Positions 1 to 8,065 of a stretch of DNA of 37,212 nt are shown one piece after another (position 1 is the stretch's first letter; each line of letters opens with the position of its first letter). Below the pieces are notes generated by a model, which had not been told where the DNA came from, did no database searches, and saw only the letters and a list, made by a program, of their open reading frames with translations. The position numbers and the translations under genes were made by a program. Source of the DNA: Gammaproteobacteria bacterium (GTDB lineage: Bacteria; Pseudomonadota; Gammaproteobacteria; Steroidobacterales; Steroidobacteraceae); the NCBI GenBank assembly GCA_027365225.1, contig DAHXNV010000020.1, positions 1 to 37,212 of the forward strand, written 5' to 3'.

Positions 1-252
1 CTCGATCTGGTGCTGGGCGAGCTCGAGTCCGCGCTGCTGGAATGGCAGGCCGCCGGCAGGGTCACGGGACGGAGGGTCGAGGCAGGGGAGCTGACGGGGC
101 GCTTTTCCCGCTACCTCAGAGACGCGATCGCGGAGAAATTCGGGATGCGCGAGGGCGCGGATTATGATGCGCGGCGGCACCTGAGGCGCTTCGTGAAGTT
201 CCTCATGCGGGTGAGGCGTGAGGTGATACAGGCCGGGGGGCGGCAGGCCTGA
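1..252 (+). CDS. Hypothetical protein, probably 3' end of a longer gene
   Basis: The frame is open from the first base of the window to a TGA at 250-252, so the start probably lies outside; an internal GTG at position 10 would give 80 residues. The visible part is charged and predicted helical, with a basic C-terminal stretch rich in Arg (RRHLRRFVKF, then VRREV). I do not recognise a family and see no membrane segment or metal-binding motif. It lies on the strand opposite to the quorum-sensing operon that ends just downstream, so it converges on it. It could also be a small complete gene, but no Shine-Dalgarno can be judged because the upstream sequence is missing. Confidence 0.45.
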   Translation, partial: LDLVLGELESALLEWQAAGRVTGRRVEAGELTGRFSRYLRDAIAEKFGMREGADYDARRHLRRFVKFLMRVRREVIQAGGRQA

Positions 253-335: not shown

Positions 336-545
336 TCAGAACACGAAGTCGATGGTTCCTTCGTCCATGGCCTGCAGGATGGCGGCGGCCATATGCGGGC
401 AGTATCCCTGGTGGCGCAGCCGCAGCCGCTCCTGAAAGTATTCGCACTTGCAGACCCAGAGGCGGTCGTTGCCCATCTGATAGCAGACAACTTCCTGTCC
501 TTCGATGTCGAATCGAAAGACCTTGTTGGTATCGGTGGACGTCAT
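336..545 (-). CDS. Small SWIM-type zinc-finger protein
   Basis: This 69-residue protein starts at ATG 543-545. Its second half carries the pattern CxC-x14-CxH (CKC, then CPH), which is the SWIM zinc-binding signature (CxCx(n)CxH) known from bacterial and eukaryotic proteins that bind DNA or protein. The first half contains FDIEGQEVVCYQ and the protein ends in acidic and hydrophobic residues. SWIM motifs are normally part of larger proteins, so a free-standing one is unusual. It is in the same orientation as the quorum-sensing operon and 77 bp behind the small CxxC gene, so it may be the operon's last gene. The Shine-Dalgarno is poor. The motif is seen directly; zinc binding and a regulatory role are inferred. 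Confidence 0.65.
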   Translation of the reverse strand: MTSTDTNKVFRFDIEGQEVVCYQMGNDRLWVCKCEYFQERLRLRHQGYCPHMAAAILQAMDEGTIDFVF

Positions 546-622
546 GACCCTGTGCCGTTGTTTTTCGCCATGATATCGGTGGGGCGAGTGATTGTACCGG
601 GGCCGGCGGCCGGCTGTCCGGC

Positions 623-880
623 CTACCGGGCGGGCTGCGGCGCACCTGAAGCCTCGCCCAGCGCGTCGGGGTCAGCCCTCCGACGGCTTATCCTATCCCC
701 GGGCCGCAGGCGGGCATAGGGCGGAAGTTGTCGGGTCAGGTGGCAGCATTGGGCCGTGATGACCTGAGGGACGCCGGTGCGCTGCTCGACCCGCGGGCCG
801 GGCGCGCCGCACCGGGGACACAGCCGCCAAGTGACGATCACGCCCAGGGTCGGTGGGGGACAGGAGCGGGTCTGTGTCAT
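623..880 (-). CDS. Small CxxC protein translationally coupled to the ABC exporter
   Basis: An 85-residue frame whose ATG (878-880) overlaps the TGA of the ABC exporter (877-879) in an ATGA arrangement, typical of translational coupling. It contains CPRCG near residue 22 and a CC pair near residue 47, suggesting a small zinc-ribbon or redox-type fold. The last third is basic and low in complexity. No family is recognised. The main support is the start-stop overlap and the cysteine pattern; a random open frame in GC-rich DNA cannot be excluded. If real, it is the sixth gene after luxR in the same transcription unit. Confidence 0.4.
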   Translation of the reverse strand: MTQTRSCPPPTLGVIVTWRLCPRCGAPGPRVEQRTGVPQVITAQCCHLTRQLPPYARLRPGDRISRRRADPDALGEASGAPQPAR

Positions 881-2631
881 GCGGCGGCCGCGTCCGGCTG
901 CTGTGCGCGCCACGAGGCGGCATAGACGCCGTTGTGCCGCAGCAGACTGGAATGGGTTCCACGCTCGAGGATGCGTCCCTGCTCGAGCACCACGATCTCG
1001 TCGGCGTGTACGACCGTCGAGAGCCGATGTGCGATCAACAGCGTGCAACGATGCTCGCAGACCTCGCGCAGGCTTGCCAGGACCTCCTGCTCGGTCCGGC
1101 TGTCGAGCGAGGCGGTGGGTTCATCGAGGACATAAAGGAGCGGGGAGGTCAGCACCGCGCGGGCGATCGAGACGCGCTGGCGCTCGCCACCGGAAAGTTT
1201 CACGCCCCGTTCTCCGACCCGGGTGTCGTATCCGTCCGGGAGACTGATGATGAACTCGTGCAGGTGGGCGATGCGGGCGGCCCGCTCGACCTCCGCGAGG
1301 GTTGCTCCGGGGCGGCCGAAGGCGATGTTGTAGGCGAGGGAGTCATTGAAGAGCACCGTGTCCTGGGGAACCACGGCGATCGCCCGGCGCCATTGCGCGA
1401 GCGGCAGTCCGGATATCGGTACGTCATCGAGCAGGATCCGCCCCCCGTCCGGCTCGATCAGGCGAGTCAGGAGCCGCACGATGCTCGACTTGCCCGAGCC
1501 GCTCGAGCCGACGACCGCGAGCGTACGGCGGGCCTCGATCCTGAAGCTGATGTCCCGGAGCACGGGGCAGCCGCTGCGGTACGACAGACTGACCTGGTCG
1601 AACGTCAGCGCGCCGGGTTCCTCGGCAGCGCCCGTCAGGCTCCCGGCGGGCTCGGGGGCCTCGCGAAACAGTCCGAGCATCGGAACGAGCATGGCCAGAC
1701 CCTGGGAGAAGCCCTGCACGGCATAGCCGAGGGTCTCGACGGGCCGCACCAGCTGGAGCATGTAGGTGTTGACGAGGACGAACTCGCCGAGGGTCATGCG
1801 GCCGCTGCGCACATCGAGCGTCGCGTACCAGGTGGTGGCGGCGAGAAATGCCGCGAAGATGCTCGCCACGAGCAGGCCGTTGCCGGCAAAGCGGCGATAG
1901 AACGCGACCCATTCGCGCTCGCTGCGCGCCATGGCCTGCCCGACCCGCGCCTGCACCGCCGACTCGGCGGCGAAGTACTTCACGGTCTCGTAGTTCAGCA
2001 GACCGTCGGTGAGGGCGGCTCCGGCCTGCACGCGGGCGGCGGAGGCCACGCGCGCAGTGCGGGCAAGAGTCGCGGCCGAATAGCCGAAGACCGCGGCATA
2101 GCACACCAGCGCGGCGCAGAAGAGGACGAGAAACAACAGGGGCGCCAGGCGCCACAGGACCACGATGACCGTCGCGAGTTCCACGGTGACCGGCAGGACC
2201 GTGAACAGCAGATGGTGCAGGATCATCTGCAGGCCCTCCAGGCCGTTGGTGAGCGTCTCGCTGACGGCGCCGGTCTGGCGGTCCAGATGGAAGCGCAGCG
2301 GCAGGTGCAGCAGATGCGCGAACAGCCGCTCGCTGAGGGTGCGAAACATGCGCCGCTCGATGCGCCCATACACCATCCCGCGTACCTCGCCGGCCGAGCG
2401 GGCGAGCCATTGGCTGAGCGCGTACAGGGCCACCAGCAGGATCGGCGCGGTGCGCGGGGCGGCCGTGAAACTGTCGATGATCAGCTTCAGCGCGAGGGGG
2501 CCGAGCCCGGTCAGCACGGCGGCGCAGAGCACCAGTCCGAGGACGAGGGCGAGGCGGCGCCGGACGAAGGGTGTGGCCTCCCGGTAGAGGATCCGCAGCA
2601 CCGGCGCAACCCCCGTACCGCTCCCGGACAT
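877..2631 (-). CDS. ATM1/HMT1-type ABC exporter (fused membrane and ATPase domains)
   Basis: A 584-residue half-transporter. Residues about 25-310 form the six-helix exporter domain with the family-typical segment NYETVKYFAAES and the helix FVLVNTYMLQLVRP. The ATPase domain follows: Walker A VGSSGSGKSS near residue 372, signature LSGGERQR near 477, Walker B LLYVLDEP near 500 and the H-loop IAHRLST near 533. All catalytic residues are present. ATM1 relatives in bacteria export glutathione conjugates or metal complexes from the inner membrane. Here the ATG follows directly on the TAG of the RAYT-like gene (2632-2634), so it is part of the luxI operon. Its position suggests export of a quorum-sensing-controlled product or of the signal itself; the substrate cannot be read from sequence. 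Confidence 0.92.
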   Translation of the reverse strand: MSGSGTGVAPVLRILYREATPFVRRRLALVLGLVLCAAVLTGLGPLALKLIIDSFTAAPRTAPILLVALYALSQWLARSAGEVRGMVYGRIERRMFRTLSERLFAHLLHLPLRFHLDRQTGAVSETLTNGLEGLQMILHHLLFTVLPVTVELATVIVVLWRLAPLLFLVLFCAALVCYAAVFGYSAATLARTARVASAARVQAGAALTDGLLNYETVKYFAAESAVQARVGQAMARSEREWVAFYRRFAGNGLLVASIFAAFLAATTWYATLDVRSGRMTLGEFVLVNTYMLQLVRPVETLGYAVQGFSQGLAMLVPMLGLFREAPEPAGSLTGAAEEPGALTFDQVSLSYRSGCPVLRDISFRIEARRTLAVVGSSGSGKSSIVRLLTRLIEPDGGRILLDDVPISGLPLAQWRRAIAVVPQDTVLFNDSLAYNIAFGRPGATLAEVERAARIAHLHEFIISLPDGYDTRVGERGVKLSGGERQRVSIARAVLTSPLLYVLDEPTASLDSRTEQEVLASLREVCEHRCTLLIAHRLSTVVHADEIVVLEQGRILERGTHSSLLRHNGVYAASWRAQQPDAAAA

Positions 2632-3645
2632 CTACGCGGCCCCGCAGGCCGCGCGCACCGGCGGCGCGCGAGGGGTGGGCACGGGCGGCAAGGCGGCCAG
2701 ATCCGGGAACAATTCCGGGGTGGCGAGCGCAAAGTACTGGGGATGCGTGCGCCGATGCCGGTCGATCAGATGGCGCAGGTCCGAACTCGTGACCCCGAAC
2801 CATCCGCCCACCGTCCCGATCCGCGCCGTCCCGGTCCGCATCGCATACCAGGCCACGAGCGCCCGGGCGAGGGCGCCCCGATGGGTCGAGGTGCAGGCGA
2901 GGCCGGGCTGGGTATGCAGCACCGTGCAGGTCACCTGCAGCAGCAGGTCCTCGGGGGAGGGCCTCCTTCCCGGCGTGCGGCACCGCTCGCGCACGCTCTG
3001 CCGGAAGCTCCGTTCCCCGATGATCGGCCGCGCCAGCAGATCCGCGATGGCGGGGCTGTCGCGGTGCGCCATGAACTCGAAATAGGCGCCCGGACCGACA
3101 TAACCCAGGGGCTCGAGCGCCGCGCGCATCGCGCTTACGACGAAGCGCGCCGGCCGCGGTTTGCGGCCGCAATAGATCAGGCCGGAGCTGAACGGATGAT
3201 GCGCGGCGCGGCGGCGCGCGCCGGGAGCTTCCCGGCGCTGCACGTGGCGCACCGCGTAGGGGAGCTTCGCCGGCTGCAGCAGCTGCGCCTTGTATCGGCG
3301 TGGAAAGAGCCTCTGGCCTGCGGGCGTGCGAGCTTCCCCCCGCAGCTGCCGCGCGTATCGCAAGAGCAGGTCGTGCATCAGCCAGGACAGCGGCGCGCCG
3401 CCGCTCTGCAGGACGATCAGCGCGGCGTTCGGTTCCGTGACATACGCGTGGATCAGGGCATCGTATTGCTCGCAAGCGTCCCACAGCAAATCCTCGCAGA
3501 CCTCGACATGCGGCGCGTGGGCGCGCGGGTTGTCCGGGAACCGCCTGAACAGATCCGGAGCGTAGAACACCTGACCGCCGGGCGGGCCGCAGATGCTCAC
3601 CAGGTGCAGAGCTCCGGGGAATTCACAGCGCCTGGGACGTGTCAT
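2632..3645 (-). CDS. Degenerate REP-associated tyrosine transposase (RAYT/Y1)-like protein with DnaA-like C-terminal helices
   Basis: A 337-residue protein. Its N-terminus (MTRPRRCEFPGALHLVS) matches the start of RAYT proteins of the IS200/IS605 Y1 family, as do CEQYDALIHAYVTEPN (residues 58-73) and LFPRRYKAQLL (113-123). In active members the PN is followed by the HUH histidines (PNHYHL); here the residues are A74, A75 and L76, so the metal-binding pair is gone. A tyrosine at 130 sits where the nucleophile is expected. About residues 225-300 (LARALVAWYAMRTG, then GGWFGVTSSDLRHLIDRH) resemble the DnaA C-terminal DNA-binding helices seen in some Y1 relatives. It therefore probably binds DNA but cannot carry out Y1 strand transfer. 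It lies between the ParB-like gene (28 bp gap) and the ABC exporter (no gap). Family assignment is by eye. Confidence 0.72.
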   Translation of the reverse strand: MTRPRRCEFPGALHLVSICGPPGGQVFYAPDLFRRFPDNPRAHAPHVEVCEDLLWDACEQYDALIHAYVTEPNAALIVLQSGGAPLSWLMHDLLLRYARQLRGEARTPAGQRLFPRRYKAQLLQPAKLPYAVRHVQRREAPGARRRAAHHPFSSGLIYCGRKPRPARFVVSAMRAALEPLGYVGPGAYFEFMAHRDSPAIADLLARPIIGERSFRQSVRERCRTPGRRPSPEDLLLQVTCTVLHTQPGLACTSTHRGALARALVAWYAMRTGTARIGTVGGWFGVTSSDLRHLIDRHRRTHPQYFALATPELFPDLAALPPVPTPRAPPVRAACGAA

Positions 3646-3673
3646 GATGTGCCTGCCGGCGCCTGCGCGCGCA

Positions 3674-4540
3674 TCATGCCGCGCTGGGCGCAGGCTCGGG
3701 GCACTCGCGGCCGATCAGGACCGCGACCACGGCTTGGGTGAGGGCCTGCTCGAGGCGCGCCTCGACCCGCGCGTTGGGAATTCTGAGCACGAGGTCCCGG
3801 CGCTGGCGCTCCAAGCGCAACAGCGCCTCTCCGGTGGGACCCTTGATCACGCGGCTCGTGCCGCGCCGGCTGGCGTGGCGGACCGCGCCCCGCTCGGCGA
3901 GCAGCAGCTCGTAGACCGAGACCGCCGGCGGGCGGGGCATGCGCCTGTGGATCGTCCGCGCCCGCTCGAGGAGCATGGGGCGGCGATCGTCATTGCAGGC
4001 CTTGTGCAGCTCGACGGCCCACGACTCGAGGATCTCGTGGGGCGTGGCGAATGCCCCGATGAGGGCCGCGGGAAGCTCGGCGAATTTCAGCAGCCGGGTC
4101 ACCTGCGTGGGCGTGATGCCGAGCTCGCGCGCCATCTGGTCCTGCGAGCCGAACAGATTGCGCCGCAGCAGCTTCGCGAGCCACAGGCCCCGCTCGTATG
4201 CGCTGGCCTGCCGGCGCAGGGCGTTTTCGGCTTCGACGGCCACGGCCGCCTGCTGGTCGGTGAGCGAGCGGATCTCGACGCGAAGCGGCACGTTCAGCTG
4301 GCGCGCGATGAACAGCCGGCGCGTGCCGCAGATCACCTCGATGTCAAAGTCCGCATCGCCGGCCAGCGTGCGCCCGATGACCGGAACCAGCTGTCCGTTG
4401 CGGGCCACGCTGTCGATTTCGGCCCGGCACGACGCCTCGGTCAGGTCATCTTCGAGGCGCGCGTTGAGCGCCCAGCTGCGACACCGGAACGGATCGGCGC
4501 TCACGAGCAATCCGGCATCGGGCACGGGACACCCGCTCAC
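3674..4540 (-). CDS. ParB/Spo0J-like DNA-binding protein
   Basis: A 288-residue protein starting at GTG 4538-4540, which overlaps the TGA of the dioxygenase gene (4537-4539). Residues about 35-115 form a ParB N-terminal domain: NGQLVPVIGR, then the ParB box II CGTRRLFIARQL, then AVEAENALRRQ. A helix-turn-helix follows (LFGSQDQMARELGITPTQVTRLLKFAELP, about 130-158). The C-terminal half is basic and unfamiliar. ParB proteins bind centromere-like parS sites and, in canonical members, hydrolyse CTP through the GxxR region. There is no parA ATPase beside it, so a chromosome or plasmid segregation role is not supported. Within the luxI operon it more likely acts as a regulator or DNA-organising protein. 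Confidence 0.8.
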   Translation of the reverse strand: MSGCPVPDAGLLVSADPFRCRSWALNARLEDDLTEASCRAEIDSVARNGQLVPVIGRTLAGDADFDIEVICGTRRLFIARQLNVPLRVEIRSLTDQQAAVAVEAENALRRQASAYERGLWLAKLLRRNLFGSQDQMARELGITPTQVTRLLKFAELPAALIGAFATPHEILESWAVELHKACNDDRRPMLLERARTIHRRMPRPPAVSVYELLLAERGAVRHASRRGTSRVIKGPTGEALLRLERQRRDLVLRIPNARVEARLEQALTQAVVAVLIGRECPEPAPSAA

Positions 4541-5460
4541 GGGGCTTCGCCAGCCTCGCGCGGCTCGCGGGCGTAGAACTCGCGCAGCTCGCGCACGGTG
4601 CCCGCGGGTAAGGCATCGACGGCCGGCAGACTATGCGATGCGGTCTCGAACAGCACCGCCGGATCCTGTCCTTCGTATCCGCCCAGGTTGGGTCGGTGGA
4701 TGCGATAGCCGAGCAGGTCGCGCAGGGCCGGCGGAAACTGGCGGGCCACCGCCGGCGGATAGGACAGAAAGGCATTCTCGTACTGTTTCAGCCAGCCGAG
4801 GCAGTAGCTGAGGATCAAGCCGGTTCGCGGCCGGTCACTGCGATTGGCGCCGGCGCAGTGCGTCAGCGAGCCGAGGTACACCAGCGCCGACCCGCGCGGC
4901 ATGGCGGCGACCGTGGCCTGCGCCAGATCGAGTTCGCGCGAGAGGCGCGCGAAGTGGCTGCGGGGCCACAGCACGGTGGCGCCGTTGCGGGCGGTGAAAT
5001 CCGACAGTGCCCACATGACATTGACCAGGTACTCGATGCCGCCCTTCGGACACGGCCACATCTCCTCGTCCCGATGCGGCACCTGCCGCCGCTCGCCGGG
5101 GTGCAGGCGCACCGCCTGCGTCAGGTTGAGCTGATACCAGTCGCAGTGCGGCCCGAGCACCGCGTCAAGGAGGCTCAGGATCACCGGGTGCAGGGCGAGG
5201 GCGTGCGAGGCCGGCGATTTCAGCGGCACCGACCCGAATCGGGTGGTGTTCCAGCCGTAGAAATCGCCCTGACAGCGCGGCGTCGCGCTGAACCACGGAT
5301 CGAGCTCGGCATTCACCCGCTCCACGGTCGCATCGGGCAGCAGCCGCTCGAAGATGACATAGCCGCTGGCGCGCAGCACGTCGAGCGCGGTCGGCAGTCC
5401 AGGGGCGCCGGCGGCCGTGCCGGGCTCGCTCGCTCGAATCGAGGGGAAGGGTTCGGTCAT
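4537..5460 (-). CDS. Phytanoyl-CoA dioxygenase (PhyH) family Fe(II)/2-oxoglutarate oxygenase
   Basis: A 307-residue protein starting at ATG 5458-5460. The open frame runs on upstream, but that extension overlaps luxI and reads like random GC-rich code. The iron-binding facial triad is visible: H129 and D131 in VPHRDEEMWP, and H201 in SLTHCAGANRS. R212 in RPRTGLIL is the likely 2-oxoglutarate anchor. PhyH enzymes hydroxylate acyl-CoAs, amino acids and varied natural products. The gene starts 8 bp after the luxI stop, so it is almost certainly co-transcribed with it. One possibility is that it oxidises the acyl part of the signal or a signal-controlled metabolite; the sequence does not decide this. 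Confidence 0.88.
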   Translation of the reverse strand: MTEPFPSIRASEPGTAAGAPGLPTALDVLRASGYVIFERLLPDATVERVNAELDPWFSATPRCQGDFYGWNTTRFGSVPLKSPASHALALHPVILSLLDAVLGPHCDWYQLNLTQAVRLHPGERRQVPHRDEEMWPCPKGGIEYLVNVMWALSDFTARNGATVLWPRSHFARLSRELDLAQATVAAMPRGSALVYLGSLTHCAGANRSDRPRTGLILSYCLGWLKQYENAFLSYPPAVARQFPPALRDLLGYRIHRPNLGGYEGQDPAVLFETASHSLPAVDALPAGTVRELREFYAREPREAGEAP

Positions 5461-5468
5461 AGCCGCGC

Positions 5469-6128
5469 TCACCGGGGGGCGATCGAGCCGGCGGCAGATG
5501 TTGCCGCCGGCAGGCACAAGCGTGCGTGCAGGCGCGTGGCCGGGATCGGTACGCCGTGGCGCTGGCGCACGGCGCGCAAGCCCGCCGCCGTGACCGTCGC
5601 GGCCGCGGCGGCAATCTCCTCCTCGCCGGCGCCGAGGCGGGGGCCCAGGGCTCGCGCCTCCCAGCCGCAGTGCAGCACGAGGCGCAGCAGAGCGCGGTTG
5701 ACCGCGAAGACCACCTGTTCGATGTCGTAGAGGAGGGCGGTCTCGAGCACTCCGCACACCATTTCCCACACGAGCGCGTGCGCGCGGCGCTCGGCGCGCA
5801 GGTCCGGCGCCACGCACATCCGCGAGGCCTCCCAGACTGTCGGTCCGCGCGGGATGGCCGCCAGACATGCGAGCGGGAACAGCTCACTCATCAGGTGCGG
5901 CCGCTGTGTCGGCAGCAGCCGCACGGAGGCGGTAATGGGACCGCACGGGGCGTCCTTGGCGAGCAGGTAGAGCGTATCGTCGCGATCATAGCGATCGATC
6001 TCCCGATCCCCGCTCACGGGAACGTTCCAGCCGGCACGGTCGACGAAGACGATCTTGCGCTGCCGATGCATCGCGGCGAGATCGACGGCGAACTGTGAGC
6101 GGTTCTCGGCGTTGACGAGGAAAATCAT
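5469..6128 (-). CDS. luxI: LuxI-family N-acyl-homoserine-lactone synthase
   Basis: A 219-residue protein beginning MIFLVNAENRS at ATG 6126-6128, with a Shine-Dalgarno GGAG six bases upstream; the open frame extends further 5' but without family similarity. All residues held invariant in LuxI synthases are in place: R24, F28, W34, D45, D48, R70, E100 and R103 (segments FVDRAGW, EIDRYD, RLLPT, VWEASR). The enzyme makes N-acyl-homoserine lactone from S-adenosylmethionine and an acyl donor, releasing 5'-methylthioadenosine. The acyl chain cannot be predicted. It lies 168 bp behind luxR in the same orientation and heads a run of tightly spaced genes. Confidence 0.95.
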   Translation of the reverse strand: MIFLVNAENRSQFAVDLAAMHRQRKIVFVDRAGWNVPVSGDREIDRYDRDDTLYLLAKDAPCGPITASVRLLPTQRPHLMSELFPLACLAAIPRGPTVWEASRMCVAPDLRAERRAHALVWEMVCGVLETALLYDIEQVVFAVNRALLRLVLHCGWEARALGPRLGAGEEEIAAAAATVTAAGLRAVRQRHGVPIPATRLHARLCLPAATSAAGSIAPR

Positions 6129-6187: not shown

Positions 6188-6203
6188 ATCCTCTGATCAG
6201 GGG
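6188..6203. promoter_or_regulatory. Candidate lux box upstream of luxI
   Basis: The 16 bases TCCTCTGATCAGGGGA form an inverted repeat with a single mismatched pair and the central GATC found in classical lux boxes. The site lies 60 bp before the luxI ATG, a suitable place for LuxR-type activation. The outer bases match the lux consensus poorly, so the call rests on symmetry, centre and position. Confidence 0.4.
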
Positions 6204-6216
6204 AGGGTGGCGCGGG

Positions 6217-6271
6217 CCGGCGGCGCGCCCGCCGGCACGTCCGTTGCATCCTCTGGCGAGGGACGCTCGCC
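6217..6271 (-). terminator. Two hairpins between luxR and luxI
   Basis: Reading down from luxR, there are two perfect inverted repeats: GGCGAG/CTCGCC with a 5-base spacer (6255-6271) and CCGGCGG/CCGCCGG with a 5-base spacer (6217-6235). No T-run follows either, so they may be weak terminators or attenuators limiting readthrough from luxR into luxI, or simply GC-rich structure. Confidence 0.3.
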
Positions 6272-6296: not shown

Positions 6297-7049
6297 CTAC
6301 TTCGGCGCCCCATCGGCGCAGGAGATCTGCCCGGTCCTCAGCGCCCGAACCACCGCCTGGATCCGCGTGATCACGTCGAAGCGGCGTTTGGCGTTCTCGA
6401 TGTGGTAGTGCACCGTGCATGGGCTCAGTCCCAACAGGCGGGCGATCTCCCAGTCGGTCTTGCCGCACGCCACGAGTTCCAGGCACTGTCGTTCCCGTGG
6501 CGTCAGCTCGGCGCCCACAGCGCCGCTGTGTTGCAAGCGGGCGCGGCGGGCGAAGCCATACAGGTACACCGCCAGCAGCTGCACGGTGGTGTAGCTGCGC
6601 AGATCGATCGCGCTGCCCTCGGGAACCACCGAGCACGAGGCGCGGGGCGAGCCGGCGGGTCCGCAGGGCTCGAGCGGCACGGTGTAGCCGTGCGCGATGC
6701 CGTAACCGGCCGCCTCATCCAGCACGCCTCGCTGCCGCTTCGTGATCGGGCGCGTGGCGAAAGCCGCGTCCCAGAAGAACGGCGCAGGGGAGCGCTCGGC
6801 GAGCTGCAGCACCGGGTCGAGCCGAAAGTGTCCGGCTGCGCGGAAGCGCTGCGCCCATGCGGGCGGGTAGTTGTGCAGCAGGAGGGCCGCGGCGGGCGGA
6901 TCGCGCGGGTCGATGCGCGAGCAGCAGGCGAAGTAGCGGAAACCGAGACGCTCGAGCGACGCCTGGAACGCGGCGCCGAGGTCCGCGAGCGAGCACTGCT
7001 CGCTCTGGCAGCGCTCGAGGAACGACTGGAGCAGATCGAGATGATCCAT
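6297..7049 (-). CDS. luxR: LuxR-family AHL-responsive transcription regulator
   Basis: A 250-residue protein starting at ATG 7047-7049; the open frame reaches further upstream, but this start gives the usual length. Residues about 25-165 are the autoinducer-binding domain with W65, D78, P79, W93 and G121 at the family's conserved ligand-pocket positions. The usual second pocket tyrosine (Y61 of TraR-type numbering) is F69 here. Residues about 185-240 are the LuxR helix-turn-helix (LTPRERQCLELVACGKTDWEIARLLG). It presumably binds the signal made by the adjacent luxI and controls the operon. Upstream is a 395-bp intergenic region shared with a divergent response regulator. Confidence 0.93.
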   Translation of the reverse strand: MDHLDLLQSFLERCQSEQCSLADLGAAFQASLERLGFRYFACCSRIDPRDPPAAALLLHNYPPAWAQRFRAAGHFRLDPVLQLAERSPAPFFWDAAFATRPITKRQRGVLDEAAGYGIAHGYTVPLEPCGPAGSPRASCSVVPEGSAIDLRSYTTVQLLAVYLYGFARRARLQHSGAVGAELTPRERQCLELVACGKTDWEIARLLGLSPCTVHYHIENAKRRFDVITRIQAVVRALRTGQISCADGAPK

Positions 7050-7444
7050 GACATGCCATCGCGTCGGAGCAAGGTCAGGTCGCCCGCGCATGTTTCCGCA
7101 AAGGAAGGCGGCGCTCACCATAGAGTGGCGCAATTGGCCGGCAGATTCACGCGGCATGCACCCCGTCTTTTGACGCCTTGACAGGCCTTCCCCGCAGGAG
7201 TATCTCCTCGCGGTGGTTGGTCCGGTGTTGCATGGGCAAGCAAAGCTCCATGCCGTGGACAGCCGGTGAGTTGACAATAACTCGGATGCGGAGGGCTCCA
7301 ACCCGGCACGAGGGGTGTCGTTGGGGTGGTGCAACCTCCGCCGCGGTCAGATCGAGAGCCTACCGGGCGCTGCGGGCGCCGGAGCGCGCCAAGGGGGATC
7401 ATGGGAGGCCGGGCACGGTGCGTGCCCGGGATGTGGGACTGCGC
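7050..7444. other. Divergent intergenic region between luxR and the response regulator
   Basis: No gene is supported here. Two TTGACA hexamers on the plus strand (near 7177 and at 7271-7276) could be -35 elements, but neither has a convincing -10 at the right distance. The strongest structure is the palindrome described separately at 7409-7429. Confidence 0.35.
7409..7429 (+). promoter_or_regulatory. Perfect 9-3-9 palindrome just before the response-regulator start
   Basis: The arms CCGGGCACG and CGTGCCCGG are perfectly complementary with a GTG centre. The repeat ends 15 bp before the ATG at 7445. It could be an operator for autoregulation or a stable 5'-UTR hairpin close to the ribosome-binding region. 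There is no T-run, so a terminator is less likely. Confidence 0.45.
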
Positions 7445-8065
7445 ATGATGCAGACAAGGGTGTACATCGTCGCTGCGGACCCGGGGATACGCGGGGGGCT
7501 GCAGAGGACGCTCAAAGCGGCCGGATACCCGACGCGCAGCTTCGCCTCCGGGATCGCCTTCCTTCAGGCCTGCGCGCGCCTGCCCGCCGGCTGCGTGATC
7601 CTGGATCTGGCCCTGCCGGGGCCGGGTGCACTCGAGGCTCTGCGCGAGTTTGCGGCGGCGGGGTACCGGTGGCCCGTGCTCGCGCTCGCCACGCAGGCCG
7701 AGCGGGGGGCGGCGGTGGGCGCGCCGCGCGCCGGCTCGGTATCGCTGTTGGACAAGCCGGTCCCGGAGGAGCGGCTGCTGGCCGCGGTGCTCGACGCGCA
7801 GGCTCTGCTGCGCGGCGCGGCCGCTCAGGAGCGGGAGCGCGCGTTGGCGCAGGCCGTGGCGTTGCTCACGGCGCGCGAGCACGAGGTGCTCGATGCGCTG
7901 TTGGCCTCCGAGCGCATCAAGCAGACCGCCGCGCGGCTCGGGGTCGCCGAGAGCACGGTCAAATCCTGTCGCAAGACGATCAAAAGGAAGCTCGGCGCGC
8001 ACAGCACCGCACAGCTGATTCAGCTGGTCATGCGTGCCGGGATCGTGCGCCCGGCACGACCGTAG
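7445..8065 (+). CDS. FixJ/NarL-type response regulator with a degenerate receiver
   Basis: A 206-residue protein (ATG at 7445, or the adjacent ATG at 7448). Residues about 5-120 form a receiver domain with the phosphoacceptor D54 (CVILDLALPG) and the conserved Lys in LLDKPV. The acidic pair that binds Mg in FixJ relatives (VDDD) is replaced by A10-A11 in VYIVAADP, so normal phosphorylation is doubtful. Residues about 140-200 form a LuxR-type helix-turn-helix (LTAREHEVLDALL, then RLGVAESTVKSCRK). No histidine kinase is adjacent. It diverges from luxR and may be an atypical, phosphorylation-independent regulator. Confidence 0.85.
   Translation: MMQTRVYIVAADPGIRGGLQRTLKAAGYPTRSFASGIAFLQACARLPAGCVILDLALPGPGALEALREFAAAGYRWPVLALATQAERGAAVGAPRAGSVSLLDKPVPEERLLAAVLDAQALLRGAAAQERERALAQAVALLTAREHEVLDALLASERIKQTAARLGVAESTVKSCRKTIKRKLGAHSTAQLIQLVMRAGIVRPARP

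Follow-up and report, generated by a model that had tools for sequence, protein, structure and literature searches.

The closest described relative of the locus studied here is novR-novI-phyH of the Sphingomonadaceae, in which genes for a LuxR-type receptor, a LuxI-type acyl-homoserine lactone (AHL) synthase and a PhyH-type oxygenase follow one another, an order recorded for 4 of 5 pairs in the available part of PMC3704786. The accessible text of PMC5012321 notes that the reaction of PhyH still awaits description and reports that LuxI proteins expressed alone yielded hydroxylated C8 and C10 AHLs; in the portions available, the sphingomonad papers (PMC3704786, PMC4288048, PMC5012321) place GntR and virB genes downstream and mention no lasso peptide. 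In a second group of systems, mcjABCD and capABCD, a single ATP-binding cassette (ABC) half-transporter, D, is linked to the lasso-peptide genes A (precursor), B (leader protease) and C (macrolactam cyclase), and the switching of lasso genes is called poorly understood (PMC6963729, in part). Here we analyze the window, the entire 37,212-base contig C122 (DAHXNV010000020.1) of a Steroidobacteraceae assembly of 1.96 Mb that is 65.6% complete, which carries luxR-luxI-phyH followed by genes for a ParB-like protein, an inactive RAYT-like protein, an ABC exporter (D) and a small CxxC protein. We consider it probable that this operon is the signaling-and-export arm of a lasso-peptide biosynthetic cluster linked to quorum sensing. 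The argument is built from sequence, namely the identities, order and conservation of the genes, their adjacency in sister genomes to A-B-C, isopeptidase and TonB genes, a box ahead of luxI and the position of two contig ends.

As in novR-novI-phyH, the three genes of the window follow one another in that order at close spacing, with PhyH 46-52% identical; the window differs in coming from a family of the Gammaproteobacteria, that of Steroidobacter and Povalibacter, and in having parB, rayT, D, cxxC and the lasso tie. The first-pass annotation, made from the letters alone, had stated that the gene set matched no quorum-sensing locus it knew, a statement that was too broad, as the luxR-luxI-phyH core has been published for sphingomonads (PMC3704786, PMC4288048 and PMC5012321, as far as their available text goes). 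Among the papers listed in searches of open-access full text, none links luxI with a lasso cluster; as subscription journals are mostly outside that literature, this is weak evidence of novelty. Relative to mcjABCD and capABCD, the D of the window is grouped by its spacing with the luxI unit and not with A-B-C.

The genes lie on the minus strand in the order luxR (6297..7052, scanned as 6297-7334; Autoind_bind, 100.1 bits, and GerE), luxI (5469..6128; Autoind_synth, 86.7 bits), phyH, for a PhyH-type Fe(II)/2-oxoglutarate oxygenase with HxD...H kept (4537..5460; PhyH, 85.1 bits), the gene for the ParB-like DNA-binding protein (3674..4540; TIGR00180, 76.5 bits, cut-off 58.45), that for the RAYT-like protein (2632..3645), D (877..2631; ABC_membrane and ABC_tran), that for the small CxxC/CC protein with variable ends (623..880) and that for a SWIM-type protein (336..545; 15.7 bits, under the cut-off of 19.6). 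The intervals from luxR to cxxC are 168, 8, -4, 28, 0 and -4 bp, with SWIM 77 bp further on. These places, the strand and the spacing agree with the first-pass annotation, whose compact unit headed by luxI is borne out by the tight gaps and the palindromic box before luxI, with the correction that luxR precedes luxI; luxI to cxxC would form one transcript.

Gene order and near-constant gaps recur in five further species of the genus (G006, G056, G037, G042 and G010) as far as their contigs reach. The full set is present in G056, G042 and G010, while SWIM is cut in G006 and LuxI in G037, and protein identity across these relatives is 59-97% for the six large genes and LuxR. In the closest comparison, with G056, the operon proteins are 88-97% identical, CxxC 86% and SWIM 100%. 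The neighborhood is not confined to one strain, the outcome that the first-pass annotation had set against its own proposal: among 58 genomes of the genus, 11 of which contain LuxI, the window's genome and five others carry the set, contigs permitting, and G011 carries it in pieces, with LuxR-LuxI-PhyH-ParB on one contig and ABC-CxxC-SWIM on another; a protein search of the genomes found no RAYT-like gene in G011. The RAYT-like protein was matched in 12 of 99 genomes including the window's own, five others holding close orthologues (62-92%). The ratio of nonsynonymous to synonymous substitution rates (dN/dS) is below 1 for all of the large genes (PhyH, 0.11-0.23; ABC, 0.23-0.29; ParB, 0.26-0.37; LuxI, 0.26-0.52; LuxR, 0.30-0.58; RAYT, 0.28-0.69).

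The tie to lasso peptides comes from the sister genomes. In unannotated loci, genes were called from open reading frame (ORF) length, codon-position GC and homology, and lasso genes were sought by tblastn (E 1e-5) with few queries, so that diverged copies may escape; one B query (L142:10958-11785), perhaps partly in the wrong frame, underlies in part the L143 fragments and the B pieces of L145 and L146. In G056, lasso genes begin ~2 kb past SWIM, with a precursor (leader MITLGTVSKETM, core GVKLVGSPEPIFQQAQAL), a B2 protease scoring 55.6 bits against NF033537 (cut-off 33), an Asn-synthase-type cyclase scoring 76.6 bits against PF00733 (cut-off 21), a pair of isopeptidase-like proteins that at 127.7 and 145.4 bits stay under the 400-bit cut-off of NF033523, and an STN/TonB receptor, FecR and extracytoplasmic function (ECF) sigma factor that exceed their Pfam cut-offs. 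B, C and a precursor occupy the same position in G042 and G010, so that A, B and C are found at the locus in all three, and C lies on other contigs in G006 (98%) and G011 (79%). With the genes listed above, from precursor to sigma factor, the G056 cluster resembles the proteobacterial lasso clusters containing an isopeptidase, a TonB receptor and FecI/FecR, which we take to be of the astexin type. The precursor of G010 (5806-5940 of L020) has an Asn at core position 1, as does that of metanodin from a Steroidobacteraceae relative in a related soil metagenome, described in the available part of PMC12670498. In comparison with either of these known types, that of the window adds an AHL synthase and receptor, PhyH, the ParB-like and inactive RAYT-like proteins and the ABC exporter.

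Lasso genes adjoin luxR-luxI-phyH likewise in Povalibacter, in Hyphomonadaceae-type genomes and on sphingomonad plasmids, and further precursors were seen in L019, L020, L059, L135, L081, L082, L087-L090, L092 and L100. In one case (L087, Hydrogenophilaceae), a precursor core is identical to that of the Hyphomonadaceae locus L089, and the isopeptidase passes the NF033523 cut-off (575.2 bits). A PF13471 search in 15 genomes placed B genes near luxI: in nine genomes of the family, which are related and thus allow no exact probability, B lies within 10 kb of luxI in five (0.075 expected) and within 12.5 kb, at 2.7-12 kb, in seven (0.094 expected). The nearest B is 31 kb away in G311, and there is none on the 10.7-kb luxI contig of G035; six genomes were omitted from the count, five with short luxI contigs and G009 without luxI. 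Outside this count, G107 has lasso B and C ~4 kb from luxI. Lasso B or C is also held by 12 of the 32 PhyH loci of a wider scan described below (L069, L073, L074, L076, L081, L082, L087-L090, L092 and L100).

By sequence, the regulatory pair of the window has the marks of LuxI/LuxR quorum sensing, with a LuxI-family synthase, its key residues, an adjoining Autoind_bind/GerE LuxR and a palindrome before luxI. Collinear LuxR orthologues (59-92%) occur in L016, L017, L019 and L020, and nine residues are invariant in nine LuxI sequences (R24, F28, W34, D45, D48, R70, E100, S102 and R103), which we assume to be catalytic. The lux-box-like palindrome, a putative LuxR site at 6189..6204, lies 60 bp ahead of luxI and is the sole match to CCYCTGATCAGRGG in the incomplete assembly. 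We infer that LuxI makes an AHL and that LuxR, with this signal, would act at the palindrome to raise luxI-phyH-parB-rayT-D-cxxC, more signal presumably giving more expression. Palindromes like TCCYCTGATCAGRGGA recur ~60 bp ahead of luxI across the genus. Eight LuxI genomes contain a single match each to the strict pattern, always ahead of luxI, and G055 contains two; the reversed control pattern had zero occurrences in the genomes scanned. In G055, the palindrome ACCCCTGATCAGGGGT stands ahead of D and ahead of the lasso precursor; these are the only two strict matches of that assembly, and the LuxR gene next to them has no luxI beside it. In G035, the gene behind a looser copy (4 mismatches) encodes a non-ribosomal peptide synthetase of 2,608 residues. 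That locus (L131 165-7988) consists of luxR-luxI without an adjacent PhyH, a short ParB-like protein and then the box and the synthetase, which has two adenylation, two condensation and one terminal NAD-binding (reductase-type) domain. A palindrome ~75 bp ahead of luxI recurs in L087-L092; palindromes common to the luxI and lasso promoters of Hyphomonadaceae-type loci were sought, none being convincing, and half-site-like stretches (CCCCTGAT) upstream of A in L017 were not counted as boxes. A second conserved block, ATGCAAC..nCGTGCC at 6234-6249 of the window, lies ~30 bp upstream of the palindrome in six of six aligned luxR-luxI gaps.

In the oxygenase, H129, D131, H201 and R212 are invariant across 17 aligned sequences. 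PhyH matches occur in 37 of 296 genomes of the order, identity dropping stepwise from 59% to 42%; the seven close homologues all adjoin LuxI, and no LuxI was seen at six loci of ~40% identity (L063-L068). The window, with luxR-luxI-phyH, belongs to this LuxI-linked clade. Scanning the genomes of 84,980 species with a PhyH alignment gave 32 loci, from Steroidobacter, Povalibacter, Hyphomonadaceae, Terricaulis, Sphingobium and other proteobacteria, and LuxR and LuxI adjoin PhyH at 31, the remaining one beginning at a contig end. PhyH was the bait in both searches, which biases this adjacency; with LuxI as bait in what are presumably the same 296 genomes, LuxI was found in 16, PhyH adjoining it in seven of the nine in the window's family, and the other seven, outside that family, had no PhyH match. 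PhyH stays behind LuxI while the genes that follow vary, from lasso genes to virB conjugation genes (L232 and L233), a hypothetical gene and a cellulase (L229), a convergent pump of the resistance-nodulation-division type (L083, by eye) and a CMAS-type methyltransferase (L094). A phage origin was rejected for PhyH, since 12 pattern matches were obtained, yet no PhyH relatives in viral_contigs. On the Sphingobium conjugative plasmids L232 and L233, luxR-luxR-luxI-phyH lies directly ahead of the virB operon, which suggests signal-controlled transfer; the survey examined five of 85 matching plasmid records, and the available text of PMC4288048 has the same topology of luxI-phyH ahead of virB.

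An alternative, which we consider unlikely, retains the cluster and makes PhyH a tailoring enzyme that hydroxylates a core residue of the lasso peptide and not the signal. The lasso peptide canucin A is hydroxylated by a 2-oxoglutarate enzyme (PMC8498205, in part), the nearest solved relatives of PhyH in a structure comparison are natural-product oxygenases, and in clusters of Povalibacter and of the Hyphomonadaceae type, phyH has luxI on one side and the lasso genes on the other. However, the non-lasso genes that follow luxI-phyH at five loci argue against a peptide substrate, as do the seven lasso loci without luxI (L021, L022 and L142-L146), where PhyH had no match at E 1e-4, and G107, which has luxI and lasso genes without PhyH. 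Because its constant partner is the signal synthase, the signal is favored over the peptide as substrate, and PhyH most likely oxidizes the AHL or its acyl precursor. A modified signal from LuxI and PhyH, as the first-pass annotation had proposed, therefore still stands as the best guess. PhyH is not needed for 3-hydroxylation, given that LuxI proteins alone gave hydroxylated AHLs (PMC5012321, in its available part). The other half of that proposal, export of the signal, was not supported, since relatives of the exporter sit with lasso genes.

Relatives of this exporter at E 1e-100 occur in 22 of the 58 genus genomes including the window's, the others being 52-97% identical. Setting aside the window, L016, L018 and L139, where contig ends are nearby, 12 of 13 inspected ABC loci hold lasso A, B or C (L017, L019, L020, L021, L059, L135, L136 and L142-L146, with L143 supported by fragments only), L141 having none, and seven of the 12 have no luxI in the stretch. 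Relatives thus lie beside lasso genes, many without luxI, which ranks a signal exporter lower. Like McjD, D is a half-transporter with ABC membrane and ATPase domains and with relatives beside lasso genes; the ATM1-type label of the first-pass annotation names one among many fold relatives, and the nearest gene context is lasso-peptide export. D would export the lasso peptide made from A, B and C, which lie ~2 kb further on in the sister species and here would fall in an assembly gap.

Several observations weigh against a lasso-linked arm. Lasso A, B and C were not found in the window or in its 65.6%-complete assembly, which gave no PF13471 match and no DNA match to the G056 lasso stretch, a weak cyclase fragment on C163 being its sole trace of C. 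The strict box CCYCTGATCAGRGG was not found in scans of the G049 and G035 assemblies, and upstream of lasso A in L017, L019 and L020 there is no box with up to 4 mismatches, any direct LuxR control of A-B-C there being hypothetical. No PhyH adjoins LuxI in G035 or in G107, which retains its lasso genes, and so the enzyme is dispensable. In a further 12 of the 32 PhyH loci, no lasso genes were found in the 4-8 kb of sequence downstream of PhyH (L077, L078, L080, L083, L093-L096, L098, L070, L072 and L079); L070, L072 and L079 are of the window's type, in which the operon occupies most of the fetched stretch, and lasso genes are present in a longer stretch of L072's genome (L019) and on another contig of L079's (G006). 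The remaining eight loci (L071, L075, L084-L086, L091, L097 and L099) stop within 3.1 kb of PhyH. Finally, in Burkholderia, AHL-raised ScmR is suggested to repress the capistruin cluster (PMC6963729, in part), the opposite sign in another system.

The absent boxes of L017, L019 and L020 and the lasso genes missing from the window's assembly would fit a self-contained modified-signal system, in which the lasso genes would be independent neighbors or lost in this species and D would export the signal or another small molecule. We regard this as decidedly unlikely, as relatives of D accompany lasso genes more than they do luxI, G055 has the box ahead of D and the lasso precursor, and the assembly breaks off where the missing stretch would be. 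The first base of the window falls within a FhuF/IucA-IucC-like gene (3' end at 1..252, plus strand, truncated by the contig end and identified by homology), which in G056 separates SWIM from the lasso precursor; in L017, precursor, B and C lie directly past it. Contig C196 (85,787 bases) aligns to the onward flank of G056 at 91% up to base 85,725, ending within the TonB receptor, 62 bp from the contig end, and the ends of C122 and C196 bracket ~11.2 kb in G056 coordinates. Since the contig ends bracket the lasso position, the absence of A-B-C may be an assembly gap in which these genes of the window's genome would sit; in G006, a contig likewise breaks within B.

If the operon is the signaling-and-export arm of a lasso cluster, its two DNA-binding-type proteins need a role. 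The ParB-like protein has a Spo0J/Noc-type N domain and a SopB-type helix-turn-helix, with profile matches to SopB, Spo0J and Noc structures. These features are shared with ParB/SopB/Noc; in contrast to those systems, its operon neighbors are quorum-sensing and export genes, and the family scan found no ParA among the operon genes. The RAYT-like protein matched no Pfam, NCBIfam or PHROG family. From a low-confidence model (mean pLDDT, 58; residues 13-137 mostly 60-80), it is predicted to have a Y1 fold, its 25 best PDB matches all being IS200/IS605-type or REP-associated transposases, including 4er8 (best E, 6.5e-4). Unlike RAYT (4er8), it has lost the HUH motif and catalytic Tyr in the alignment, and its relatives recur beside lasso genes.

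The first-pass annotation had offered as an alternative a signal-controlled DNA-acting module, transposition or partition-like, for which the side-by-side ParB- and Y1-type folds in one operon speak. We reject it as very improbable: the HUH histidine pair is incomplete in every one of 14 aligned RAYT-like copies linked to luxI or to lasso genes, the operon has no ParA, and ParB-like and RAYT-like genes each occur apart beside lasso genes. Among these copies, one His and the Tyr are kept in L061, L062, L190 and L226, and the Tyr in L018 and L019; elsewhere in the order, L025 and L026 retain HUH and Tyr, L025 still matching PF01797. RAYT-like genes lie beside lasso genes, with no luxI in the stretch, in L021, L022, L142, L143 and L190, and by eye alone, with no tblastn match, in L145; at the other RAYT-like matches (L023-L028, of which L024 and L028 are short), tblastn found no lasso genes. 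In the arrangements examined, a DNA-binding gene separates phyH (or luxI) from the lasso genes, be it GntR (L082, L087, L088, L092 and two sphingomonad plasmids), RAYT-like (Povalibacter and G107), ParB-like (G049 and G055) or both (the window's group), and the end of a ParB-like gene precedes the lasso cluster in G006:C66. The two proteins are thus most likely DNA-binding regulators through which the signal would reach the promoter of lasso A-B-C, and in L017, L019 and L020 they may be that relay.

The recurrence of luxR-luxI-phyH beside lasso genes in several families makes cell density a testable lasso switch and, if the lasso-linked reading is true, lasso production would be tied to cell density. 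More tentatively, and with the odds rather against it, we suggest an undescribed class of quorum-controlled lasso clusters in Gamma- and Alphaproteobacteria, in which the oxygenase would yield a new, oxidized AHL and a ParB-type CTP switch and a dead, domesticated transposase would relay the signal.

The CxxC protein has a dN/dS of ~1 in the two pairs tested (against L016 and L017), and its core VTWxxCPxCGAPGP...CC is kept in L018-L020; a hidden lasso precursor was rejected by eye, the core being zinc-ribbon-like with no leader/core pattern. Of all the proteins, SWIM is under the strongest constraint (dN/dS, 0-0.07). The first-pass annotation had counted it with the luxI transcript; it is probably a separate transcription unit and a mere neighbor, given a promoter-like site directly upstream (620-591; one found against 0.4 expected in shuffles), whose TACAAT is common to L017 and L018, and its occurrence in G048 and G019, where LuxI was not found. 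The FhuF/IucA-IucC-like gene lies antisense between SWIM and the lasso precursor, the whole ORF of L017 scoring 26.8 bits to FhuF; in L020, nothing but shorter ORFs is left of it. In G042 (L019 2859-7300), a ~4.5-kb insert that is not in the window, L017, L018 or L020 lies between this gene and SWIM. On the other flank, a FixJ-like response regulator (7448..8065, plus strand, scanned as 7178-8065), found by family scan, stays divergent to luxR as a conserved neighbor in L016, L017, L019, L020 and L071 (52-92%).

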